Positions 4,086 to 61,757 of a stretch of 64,000 nucleotides of DNA are shown here, in pieces. The notes below the pieces were generated by a model. The model did not search any database. It saw only the letters and a program-made list of their open reading frames with translations, and had not been told where the DNA came from. This stretch comes from Omphiscola glabra (Eukaryota > Mollusca > Gastropoda > Lymnaeidae): NCBI GenBank assembly GCA_964017045.1, contig OZ024806.1, positions 4,732,488 through 4,796,487 of the forward strand, read 5' to 3'. Every line of letters starts with the position of its first letter. The stretch's first letter is position 1. The translations under genes and the position numbers were made by a program.

Positions 4086-4295
4086 AGCAATGGTTCTCAA
4101 TTCTAAATCCTACAGTTCCTAGCAGTGATTCTCAATTCTAAATCCTACAGTTCCTAGCAGTGATTCTCAATTCTAAATCCTACAGTTCCTAGCAGTGATT
4201 CTCAATTCTAAACCCTACAGTTCCTAGCAGTGATTCTCAATTCTAAATCCTACAGTCTCAGCAGTGATTCTCAATTCTAAATCCTACAGTTCCTA
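4086..4295. repeat. 35-base tandem repeat, 6 copies
   Basis: Units of agcagtgattctcaattc followed by taaatcctacagttcct. Copies differ at only a few positions. Confidence 0.92.
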
Positions 4296-6754: not shown

Positions 6755-7470
6755 TAAAAACCAGAAACAAATAAAAGTAAAGACTTAGCTGCAATCAATA
6801 TTGCCACTGAAATTTAGGTCGGGGAGGAAAGATTAGAGACAGTCGGCAGCTTCAAGTACCTTGGAGCAATAGTGTCGGAATTGATGGCCAGGATTGCGCA
6901 GACCACAGCAGCACTAAAGAGGCTCAAGAAAATATGGAACGACAAAAATATAGCCCCCAGCACCAAAATCAGGCTGATGTGCTTATTAATCCTCTCCATT
7001 TTCTTATATGCCTGTGAGTCCTGGACATTAACAGCAGAACTTGAAAGGAAAATAAAAGCGATGGAGATGAGATGTTTCAGAGGCATTCTTGGCATCTGCT
7101 ATAGAGACCATATCACCAATGAACAAGTGAAAGAAAGGATTCGTCAAGCAATTGGGCAGTACTCTGACCTCCAGGTGTCTGTAAAAAGGCGCAAACTTGA
7201 ATGGTATGGCCACGTTACCATAAAACAAGGGCTCGCAAAAGAAATCATGCAGGGCACAACTAGAGGAGGGAGAAGAATAGGAAGACAGAGAAAAAGATGG
7301 GAAGATAACATCAAAGAATGGACAGGATTAAAACCAGGCGATGCTATGCGTAGTGCAGAAGACCGAGAGAAATGGAGGAGAATAGTGTACATGTCATCTG
7401 TGGCGCCCCAACATGTCATCTGTGGCGCCCAAACGGTCGAAGGACTAAGGTACATGATGATGAATATCTT
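6755..7470 (+). pseudogene. Non-LTR retrotransposon reverse transcriptase, C-terminal fragment
   Basis: The plus strand reads into LETVGSFKYLGAIVS, then ARIAQTTAALKRLKKIW, KIRLMCLLILSIFLYACESW and, further on, RRKLEWYGHVT, GGRRIGRQRKRWEDNIKEWTG and VAPQ. This block order is typical of the C-terminal half of animal LINE endonuclease-reverse transcriptases. The catalytic palm lies upstream and is missing. An in-frame stop at 6815 and loss of about eight residues after GAIVS mark it as dead. Near the 3' end about 22 bases (acatgtcatctgtggcgccc) are duplicated. A minus-strand relative lies at 8575-9214. Confidence 0.9.
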
Positions 7471-14282: not shown

Positions 14283-15486
14283 TCTTCTTCTTCTATATCT
14301 CGAGGGACCGCGATCAATGTATTGACCATTCTGGCTTCTCTTTATGTAGAGGGGATTCACGATGTTTCTGTGCCTGCAATTGAATTTAACTAGTTGCAGA
14401 ATATCCGGAACTGTGGGTTGGAAGGCCTGAAGCAATAGACGCAAATGTATCAAGTGGTGTCGCCTCAACTGTTCTTTTTGGAAGCTTGTTCAAGTCCCTA
14501 ACTGTCTTTTGTATGAATGAGCAGTTCATTTACTGAAGTTTTGGCTCTTACGAGCCGGAACTGCCTGTCATGGCCTCGTCGCTCTCTAGGGGGGGGGGGG
14601 GGGAGAGGGACGAGTTTTTGTTTAATGCTAAGGCAGTGGACAAGCCCATTATTTATCTTGTACATCTTGTACATCATGGAGAGCCTGGATAGTCGTCGTC
14701 GTTCCTCCAATGGTGATGAGCCCAGTGTTTCCAGCATGCTGCCAACACTAGAGGTATTCTTGTAGCGGTCCAAAACAAAGCGTGCTGCCCGTCAATGAAC
14801 CACCTCCACAACCTGACGATGCTCTTCTGGGTAAATGGGTTCCAGACTGAAGATGCATAATCTAAAAGCGGCCGGACAAAGGCTTCATAGGCTTTATCTT
14901 TCACACTACAGTCGCCGATCTTCAGATTTCGCCTTAGGAACCCCAGGGTCTTGTTTGCCTGGTTGCACACATTTTTAATATGCTCGTCCCAGCGGACCTC
15001 TCTTTAAATGGTAACACTAAGGTACCTTACGGAGGAAACTGGCCCAAGTATTTGGCCATGCAGTTCGTTATGGTGGTGTAGAGGATCACTGACAGTGGCG
15101 GGATGAAATTCCATGTCCCAGATCATTTCCTTAACCGATGGAGATCCTGTTGTAGCTGGTCCTGGTCAGAACTGTTTAATACACCGCCGTCTCGTCTGCT
15201 AACAACAGTCTTGTGTGGGATGTCAGTTTCTCGGGTAAGTCATTGATGTATACTAGGAACAAACAGGGGCCTAGCACCGAGCCCTGGGGGACCACTGGCC
15301 CAACACCGATAAACAAGGAGCTTGTTCCATCCCGACAGACTGGTAGTGCCTTTGATTCCATACCTCTGAATTTTGTGTAAAAGCAAACTATGATTGACAT
15401 TGTCAAATGTCTTAAGAAGTCCATCACCAACACCTCAATTAGATTGCTCTTCTCCAAATTGGTCATCAAGTCTTCAAAAAATTCAA
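14283..15486 (-). pseudogene. LINE reverse transcriptase fragment, third family, frameshifted
   Basis: On the minus strand from about 15486: [15 protein letters not shown], a frameshifted [12 protein letters not shown], then [20 protein letters not shown], the conserved block before the active site. The catalytic motif that should follow is degenerate ([10 protein letters not shown] instead of an FADD-type motif). Next come NQANKTLGFLRRNLKIGD, FVRPLLDYASSVWNP, SLEERRRLSRLSMMYK and KLVPLPP...RRGHDRQF. The final frame is KTVRDLNKLPKRTVEATP, LDTFASIASGL and a stop at 14386. The 3' end has a gaagaagaaga-like tail near 14283. Several frameshifts and a lost active site make it inactive. This family differs from those at 6755 and 11382. 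Confidence 0.9.
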
Positions 15487-15814
15487 GGAGCCAATAGAAA
15501 TGTTCGTTTTACATGAAGTAGACCCGACTGCGTGGCTCTCAATGGTGTGTCATCCGGGACAGGATAAGAATTTTGCCGCCCCCCCCCCCCCCATATCCTT
15601 GAAAACTAATCTATAGTTGGCTGACAATGACGCCCGGTGACCGGACCATCTCCAACACCCACTACCCTCTTTCCTGGGCACATTCAATTAAGAGTAGAAT
15701 CTAAAGCTGACCGAACACTGACTTATCATTGAATGAGATGGGGAAACCTCTAATTAAATGCCCCTGTTGAATTCACATTATGAGCCCAACATGAAATGGG
15801 TATGTGGTGTGAGT
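15487..15814. other. Unassigned sequence
   Basis: No gene seen. It contains aagaattttgccg followed by a C14 run (about 15570-15592), similar to the interior of the GGCGTAG MITEs. Confidence 0.35.
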
Positions 15815-26337: not shown

Positions 26338-26479
26338 GTAAGGAAGGTAGACGTACGATTATTGAGAGAGATAAAACGTCGCAAATAGTCTTTAATAAAA
26401 TTAGCCGAGCAAACAGACCGACTTTTTTGCAACAAAAAAAAAAGGGAAAAAAGAAGATAGATTCTGACTCGAAGGGGGT

Positions 26480-27055
26480 TTGCCTGTGTATAAAGATATA
26501 AAGATATCATTTGCAGTTTATAAAATATCATTTGATGTAAATAAAGATACAAGTCTTTTGCCAGTGTATAAAGATATAAGTAATTTTGCCAGTGTATGAA
26601 GTTATCATATCCTGTGTATAAAGATATCAGTCATTTATCTGTGTATAGGATATCATTGGTTATGTATAAAGATATCAATTATTTTCTTTTGTATAAAGAT
26701 ATCAGACATTAACTGTGTATAAAGATAGCATTTGCATTGTATAAAGATATTACTAATTTGTCTCTGTTAAAAGATTTAATATGCAGTGTATAAAGATATC
26801 ATTGGCTATGTATAAATATATAATTTGCTATGTATAAAGATATCATTTGCTATGTATGGAGATATCATTTGATGTCTATGAAGATATTAGTTGCTGCGCA
26901 TAAAGTTATAAGTCATTTTCAGGTCTATAAAGATATCAATTATTTGCAATTGTATACATAAATCGTTTGCTATGTATAAAGGTATCAAACCTTTGCATGA
27001 GTATAAAGATATCAGTTATCTGCTTGTGTATGAAGATATCATATATATAACGATG
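26480..27055. repeat. About 21-base degenerate minisatellite, about 27 copies
   Basis: Units of gtgtataaagatatcattt plus gc, with many substitutions. It lies in the presumed first intron. Confidence 0.85.
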
Positions 27056-27083
27056 AGCTGGACTATCCAATGAAATGCTAAAG

Positions 27084-27250
27084 CAGTGGTTCTTGACCTT
27101 TCTAGTGCCGAGACCCTTTAATACAGTTCCTCTCATGTTGTGGCGACCCCCAACCACAAAATTATTTTTGTTTATACTTTATAACTGTGGAGTGTATGTG
27201 TTTTCAGATGGTTTTCAAAGGGGTCGCGACCCACCAGTTGAGAACCGCTA
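27084..27250. mobile_element. SPIN-like non-autonomous hAT element, 167 bases
   Basis: The left end is cagtggttcttgacc and the right end gttgagaaccgcta, which are inverted copies. The interior has ccctttaatacagttcctc, catgttgtggcgaccccc, aaccacaaaattattttt and ggggtcgcgaccca. This is the layout I remember for Space Invader (SPIN) elements. Flanks tgctaaag and cgctaaag match at seven of eight positions, consistent with a hAT target duplication. About 50 bases of the usual interior seem to be missing. Confidence 0.88.
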
Positions 27251-27258
27251 CGCTAAAG

Positions 27259-42023: not shown

Positions 42024-42401
42024 GGTCACCGGATATTTACTTGAAAGAAATTTCGTCGACGGAAAAGTGACCTACGGAAGTTTGGTCGAATTTTATTCTC
42101 GGTTCACACGAGCAAATTTTGCGTCAAATTTCTGATGTATGATCCAAAATGTGACAAAAATTTAATTTTGTGAACTGACCTTGTATGCATGTTTTTGGCA
42201 AATGTTCAGCCCCCCCCCCCCTACCACCCACTGCTCACTATTACATTTTATAATAGTTTTGTTTTACTAGTAGAGTGCGTTCCAAAAGAAATTTGACGCA
42301 AAATTTGATCGTGTGAAATTCGACCAAACTTCCGTTCGATCAGACTTCCGTCCATCAATTTTCCGTCGGCGAAATTTCTTTCAAACAAATTTCCGGATAC
42401 G
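42024..42401. mobile_element. Foldback DNA element, copy 1
   Basis: The left arm (ggtcaccggatatttacttg, aaagaaatttcgtcgacgg) pairs with the right arm (gtcggcgaaatttctttc, aatttccggatacg). Both arms carry repeated ggaaattt/gtcga motifs. The centre has gcgtcaaatttc and gaaatttgacgc. It matches copy 2 at 61459-61757. No transposase. Confidence 0.8.
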
Positions 42402-61458: not shown

Positions 61459-61757
61459 CGTATCCGGAAATTTGATCGAAAGAAATTTGGTCGACGGAAA
61501 ATTGATCGACGGAAATTTGATCGAACGGAAATTTGGTCGAATCGTTTTTTTAATTTATACGTTAAAATTTTGCGTCAAATTTCTGTTTGAACGCATTATT
61601 TTGTTTTACTATATAGTATAGTGCGTTCAAAAAGAAATTTGACGAAAATTTTAACTTTTGGAATGAAAAAATGATTCGACCAAATTTCCGTTCGATCAAT
61701 TTACCGTCGATCAATTTTCCGTCGACGAAATTTCTTTCGATCAAATTTCCGGTAACC
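61459..61757. mobile_element. Foldback DNA element, copy 2, with 9-base duplication (MULE-like)
   Basis: The left arm (tatccggaaatttgatcg, aaagaaatttggtcgacgg) and right arm (gtcgacgaaatttctttcg, atcaaatttccggtaacc) are inverted copies. The centre pairs gcgtcaaatttctgtttgaa with ttcaaaaagaaatttgacg. agatttttg flanks both sides (61450-61458 and 61758-61766). A 9-base duplication is typical of Mutator-like elements. Arms contain repeated ggaaattt and gatcga words. Confidence 0.82.

Follow-up and report, generated by a model that had tools for sequence, protein, structure and literature searches.

A 167-bp stretch of the freshwater snail Omphiscola glabra raises the question of whether it belongs to the SPIN transposons, as a sequence-only reading had proposed, and whether it can be taken as a sign of horizontal transfer. 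SPIN (Space Invaders) elements are hAT transposons of the Buster group found in tetrapods and in Rhodnius prolixus. Our answer, to which we assign a probability of about 95%, is that the element is a decayed, internally deleted SPIN member and that the family entered this snail lineage horizontally and spread by means of short forms.

The window copy and its match to SPIN

The window, i.e., the whole 64,000-nt stretch of DNA that was analysed, lies on contig C14 of the assembly. The coordinates proposed for the element by the sequence-only reading were exact, and the following features were assigned:

27084..27250, plus strand: non-autonomous SPIN-type hAT element (MITE), 167 bp, from sequence match and own-genome copies
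27084..27098, plus strand: left terminal inverted repeat CAGTGGTTCTTGACC, 2 mismatches against CAGNGGTTCTCAACC
27236..27250, minus strand: right terminal inverted repeat TAGCGGTTCTCAACT (read on the minus strand), 2 mismatches against CAGNGGTTCTCAACC
27076..27083, no strand: left target site duplication TGCTAAAG, fitting nnnTAnnn
27251..27258, no strand: right target site duplication CGCTAAAG, 7/8 identical to the left one and fitting nnnTAnnn
27130..27131, no strand: 2-nt insertion relative to the 197-nt snail consensus, its placement inside CTCTC being ambiguous
27215..27216, no strand: junction in the window copy that marks a 32-nt gap relative to the 197-nt snail form

The copy starts with CAGTGG and ends with CCGCTA. 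Ends of the CAGNGGTTCTCAACC type, the terminal motif typical of SPIN, are present both in the window copy and in the consensus of the long snail copies (left end, CAGTGGTTCTCAACC; right end, reversed, CAGCGGTTCTCAACC). The 7-of-8 target site duplication noted earlier was confirmed letter by letter (TGCTAAAG/CGCTAAAG). Taken alone it is modest evidence; flanks matching at 7 or more of 8 positions were counted in 235,831 of about 34 million start-and-length combinations in the window (about 0.7%). The terminal inverted repeats of the copy, identical at 10/16 positions without gaps, are weak on their own, and the case therefore rests on the length-wide match and on the other copies. A window-wide scan for inverted repeats of 12/16 combined with duplications of 7/8 returned 17 other hits and missed the SPIN element, because its ends match at 10/16.

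For the comparison with SPIN, a presumed tetrapod SPIN_NA consensus, not taken from a database, served as our reference. Against it the window copy was identical at 147/165 positions in a global alignment and at 144/165 in a MAFFT alignment (87-89%), in agreement with the earlier claim of a match along almost the whole length; the local score was 91, and 300 shuffles gave at most 20.5. It had been allowed beforehand that another hAT family might match more closely. The rival repeats, their sequences presumed as well, scored far below SPIN_NA: MER20 (13.5) and MER3/33 (12) were at background, and a MER5A-type repeat (28.5) was above its own shuffles (maximum, 16.5). A mouse URR1B-type repeat of likewise presumed sequence, which we take to be a relative of SPIN, scored 87.5. 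The presumed SPIN_NA contains a segment that is missing from the window copy and present in longer snail copies, so this segment cannot derive from the window. Mouse genomic DNA printed in an excerpt of PMC8376875 aligned to the window copy at 56/69 positions (E 1.6e-13 in the window), covering the left end, and to the snail consensus at 58/69; the scores were 40 and 47, respectively, the corresponding null maxima being 16.5 and 15.5. By eye, two mouse primers printed in an excerpt of PMC2767504 fit the presumed right end and the part adjoining it. The window copy differs from the presumed consensus by 11-13% and so would not, by itself, show near-identity to SPIN.

No sign of function and no evident coding capacity was seen in the window copy. 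Further copies of the element were not detected inside the window (blastn at E <0.07, HMM at E <1), nor was a transposase remnant at E <1 in the window or in a 200-kb position sample. An Rfam search and a blastn search of the element against phages and plasmids returned nothing, and exact SPIN patterns were not found in IMG/VR or GTDB contigs.

The surroundings of the copy are AT-rich and laden with repeats, a decayed minisatellite (26479-27041) adjoining it; about 47% of window positions 1-64000 were masked as tandem repeats by TRF, many of these being minisatellites. At 4088-4290 lies a 35-bp tandem array of 6 units, the unit of which resembles a SPIN left end in collapsed form (CAGTGATTCTCAA, TTCTAAAT, TACAGTTCCT). 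This unit scored 18.1 against the SPIN consensus, a value reached by 1/2,000 and 0/2,000 shuffles for two versions of the unit, and none of the 138 tandem units of the window scored higher; the array was not picked up by the family HMM. It may be a minisatellite that arose from a SPIN end. A weak reverse transcriptase (RVT_1) match was located at 15179-15508 on the minus strand (E 0.0002, below the Pfam cut-off), and the frames at 6818-7387 and 14501-15003, with no Pfam match, look like remnants of non-LTR retrotransposons.

Copies and consensus sequences in the O. glabra genome

The assembly searched has 744,774,263 bases in 37 contigs, including C37 (13,783 bases), which carries mitochondrial genes. 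Forty of 2,560 first-look candidates were scored, and all 40, the window copy among them, matched; these were spread over 14 chromosome-scale contigs. As to the copy number in the genome, a point left to be checked by the sequence-only reading, whole-genome pattern counts allowing up to 3 mismatches gave 18,585 matches for a left-end 28-mer and 15,154 for a right-end 30-mer, with 0 matches for the reversed control of each. A 200-kb sample drawn from C1-C3 at fixed positions contained two copies; extrapolated to the whole genome, this alone would give about 7,000, with a very large error.

Target site duplications of at least 7/8 were found in 29 of the 40 copies, and all 29 had TA at positions 4-5 (nnnTAnnn), the background being 7.1% TA among the dinucleotides of the window; the Ac-type pattern nTnnnnAn fits 5 of them. 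By eye, a clean duplication was present in 10/20 copies of a second sample, 10/10 with the central TA. SPIN is placed in the Buster family, and the TcBuster target is given as nnnTAnnn, in a passage of PMC3499496; the same consensus target is given for Buster elements in a passage of PMC3517528.

Consensus sequences were derived from two samples: 1) copies chosen by similarity to the window, of which 39 were fetched, 4 set aside and 35 used (L015, L033, L040 and L043 being left out of the 40 copies for uncertain ends), and 2) exact left-end hits on C1, of which the first 20 were taken, L085, L089, L091 and L093 set aside and 16 used. In the first sample, 34/35 copies fell into three length classes with consensus sequences of 197, 174 and 162 nt (n=13, 14 and 7, respectively), and L041 fell into none. 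The 197-nt consensus, from the 13 long copies, was identical to the presumed tetrapod SPIN_NA at 188/197 positions, and that of the 16 second-sample copies at 191/197, 28 columns of which were fixed by the selection and the remaining ones agreeing at 163/169. Near-identity to SPIN holds for the family, both consensus sequences being 95-97% identical to the presumed reference, and not for the window copy with its 87-89%.

Relative to the 197-nt consensus, the window copy is identical at 154/165 positions, with the 2-nt insertion and the 32-nt gap, and is about 7% divergent. The 16 second-sample copies were on average 91.3% identical to their own consensus (range, 82.8-94.9%). Compared with the long or the middle consensus, the two position-sampled copies showed 87-91% identity, and, judged by sequence, they are older than the copies picked by similarity. 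In a tree of the copies, the presumed SPIN sits among those of the snail, with mostly weak support. It was also noticed that 28 nt of the presumed tetrapod form are missing in the 16 second-sample MITEs and in all three length-class consensus sequences.

Window positions 42029-42401 and 61459-61752, as well as the fetched stretches L043, L058 and L076, contain a foldback repeat, about 240-370 bp long and with arms of the GGAAATTTGATCGA type. Compared with the piece of L043 that served as query, its pieces showed 74-92% identity. The truncated SPIN copies L043 and, by eye, L091 run into this repeat, as if it had inserted into them.

Long copies, transposase relics and their relatives

A genome search with DUF4371 gave 119 matches, 150 of 306 candidates being scored, and was too broad to single out SPIN; therefore, we turned instead to pairs of SPIN ends separated by about 2.6 kb. 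Pairing of exact left and right ends on C1, done by eye, revealed L077 (2,614 bp) and L078 (2,589 bp), which have perfect target site duplications (AGTTATGG and TCTTAAGG, respectively) and are 90.7% identical to each other. A third candidate, L079, turned out to be two separate MITEs. The ends of L077 and L078 match the MITE consensus at 91-92/103 and 78-80/86 positions, and a broken N-terminal part of a transposase lies on their minus strand. The autonomous form, also left to be looked for, is represented by 2.6-kb copies with matching ends and a broken transposase. Their left ends align to the presumed SPIN_NA through the 28 nt absent from the snail MITE (124/141 and 123/140), which indicates that the deletion junction is not the same in the two short forms. 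By eye, the stretch after the left end resembles the URR1B-type repeat.

In a genome search with a fragment of L077, for which the best 150 of 716 candidates were scored, the longest open frame was 355 aa (relic L100:1426-2490, minus strand), full-length transposase relatives being about 600 aa. Coding sequence in L100 extends into a second frame (244 aa); the right end of the copy was located, and no left end was present within the stretch fetched. No intact transposase was present among the best 150 relics scored of the 716 candidates, and the transposase pieces gave no Pfam match above the cut-off.

The 355-aa frame matched 1,335 proteins at E <=0.001, and the figures that follow are from the best 120 of these. 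The best named matches were from Protobothrops (89%, over 83% of the query), Bufo (84%), Crotalus (84%) and Myotis (84-85%), with further ones of at least 80% from Pantherophis (82-85%), Sphaerodactylus (85%), Rhinophrynus (80-81%), Xenopus (80%) and Centruroides sculpturatus (81%); the named matches at this level among the best 120 of 1,335 thus come from snakes, bats, frogs, lizards and one scorpion. Lower tetrapod matches were those of Ranitomeya (75%), Euleptes (73%) and some Cnephaeus (71-72%); a tunicate protein matched at 75%, others at 60-77%, and the bulk of the lower list at about 50-60%, the identities grading down without a clean gap. We take the tetrapod proteins matched by L100 to be SPIN transposases; bats, tenrec, squamates and frogs are reportedly hosts of SPIN. 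A search with the O. glabra transposase fragment, read for 120 of its 121 matches, again recovered bats, snakes, geckos and scorpions, in addition to Tenrec (78%) and the land snail Bradybaena similaris, whose SPIN-like fragments (P0009, P0012, P0022) are 77-84% identical to the O. glabra fragment. Transposase pieces of the scorpions C. sculpturatus and C. vittatus (P0008, P0027) are 71-81% identical to the snail SPIN relics, and scorpions are, on this similarity, a possible further host. A small protein tree, built from an alignment of 21 hits hand-chosen among the 120 listed, was star-like and weakly supported, with spiders and a beetle apart. For the SPIN-like transposase (P0001), IMG/VR yielded 16 pattern stretches and 0 relatives.

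These data bear on the suggestion that the element represents a different Buster-group hAT family, having only the CAGNGGTTCTCAACC ends in common with SPIN and inherited vertically in molluscs. Other hAT MITEs have such ends, the presumed MER5A-type repeat beats its own shuffles (28.5 vs. at most 16.5), and transposase relatives at about 50-60% identity are numerous. However, the match to SPIN covers the whole element, the alignment with the printed mouse DNA is 69 nt long and reaches well past the ends, and the best named matches of the relic are viper, frog and bat proteins at 84-89%. We regard a separate family as very unlikely.

Horizontal transfer and comparison with known systems

Contamination of the snail assembly with vertebrate DNA, in favour of which nothing speaks beyond the similarity itself, is more improbable still, in that 1) the 40 copies scored are distributed over 14 chromosome-scale contigs and left ends number 18,585, 2) the 16 second-sample MITEs and the three length-class consensus sequences are without 28 nt of the presumed tetrapod form, 3) the copies are 5-17% away from their own consensus, and 4) two of them (L043 and, by eye, L091) run into a repeat that is also present in the window. 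That the element was inherited vertically from a bilaterian ancestor, with its sequence under strong constraint, is scarcely credible. No support for this was found in an element without evident coding capacity; the non-coding copies drift (82.8-94.9% identity to consensus) while the consensus sequences are 95-97% identical to the presumed tetrapod one, and a broken transposase still shares 84-89% identity with proteins of vipers, frogs and bats.

The data are explained best, by a wide margin, by horizontal transfer, a reading that applies to the lineage and not to the window copy, since non-coding DNA that drifts freely would not have kept an identity of 95-97% after molluscs and vertebrates split; the divergence is far below that expected from vertical descent, the comparison that the sequence-only reading had singled out. 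Old copies scattered around a consensus that is close to those of distant hosts are the footprint of horizontal transfer. The earlier claim of a sign of horizontal transfer therefore stands for the family and the lineage, on the identity of the consensus sequences and of the transposase relic (84-89%), and fails for the window copy as a fresh event. Holding one of about 18,600 left ends, the window records a transfer that reached the lineage long ago, after which the family expanded.

We propose that a SPIN element entered an ancestor of O. glabra from outside the mollusc line and that a coding SPIN was then internally deleted, about 103 nt of the left end and 86 nt of the right end being kept; the 2.6-kb copies carry both parts. 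Since hAT transposases move elements by cut-and-paste, the SPIN transposase would have bound the shared ends and moved the short forms in trans in this way, and the 8-bp nnnTAnnn duplications are seen directly in the copies. Such an expansion would have led to the approximately 18,600 left ends recognisable today, the window copy being one among them. As no intact transposase was seen among the 150 relics scored and the copies are 5-17% diverged, the family is probably extinct in O. glabra, i.e., it probably no longer moves by itself.

A more speculative extension, which we consider unlikely, is that freshwater pulmonates form a major reservoir of SPIN: lymnaeids would have taken up a coding SPIN, made their own 28-nt-deleted form and amplified it to about 18,600 copies independently of tetrapods, and snails, via parasites shared with vertebrates, might be both source and sink. 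With many thousand SPIN copies in a lymnaeid assembled to chromosome scale, the timing of the invasion becomes testable by insertions shared with Lymnaea and other lymnaeids, and the deletion in the snail short form can mark where transfers went. For the window alone the result is ordinary, one old MITE copy.

No report of SPIN in O. glabra was found in the literature, an absence that is weak, the species name having been unqueried and subscription papers lying mostly outside the scope; a word search of the main text of the O. glabra genome paper (PMC12553978) returned neither "SPIN" nor "transpos". What is new is the host species, the high copy number, the 28-nt deletion in the snail form and the lack of an intact transposase among the 150 relics scored. 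The known story is extended to another species, and the element type itself is not new.

Compared with SPIN and SPIN_NA of tetrapods and Rhodnius, the snail element is alike in its ends, its subterminal sequence, its 8-bp nnnTAnnn duplications and its nature as an internally deleted MITE, and compared with those of tetrapods also in its transposase relic, the best named matches of which (vipers, frogs and bats) are at 84-89%. It differs from the presumed tetrapod SPIN_NA in that the snail MITE consensus lacks 28 nt and the window copy a further 32 nt. Within snails, hAT transposons are reportedly common to Lymnaea stagnalis and vertebrates. This sharing is mentioned second-hand in an excerpt of PMC4344730, and L. 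stagnalis, likened here by description, belongs to the same host family, Lymnaeidae. According to a passage of PMC5440852, Biomphalaria glabrata carries a hAT element with identity to SPIN in about 1,000 copies, with no intact transposases detected in the assembly; SPIN-like hATs in snails, which the sequence-only reading had mentioned for a pond snail, are thus in print in both sources. The B. glabrata element, likewise compared by description, resembles that of O. glabra in coming from a freshwater snail, in being SPIN-like and in that intact transposases were not detected, whereas its host belongs to another snail family and its roughly 1,000 copies, counted by a different method, stand against 18,585 left ends here.
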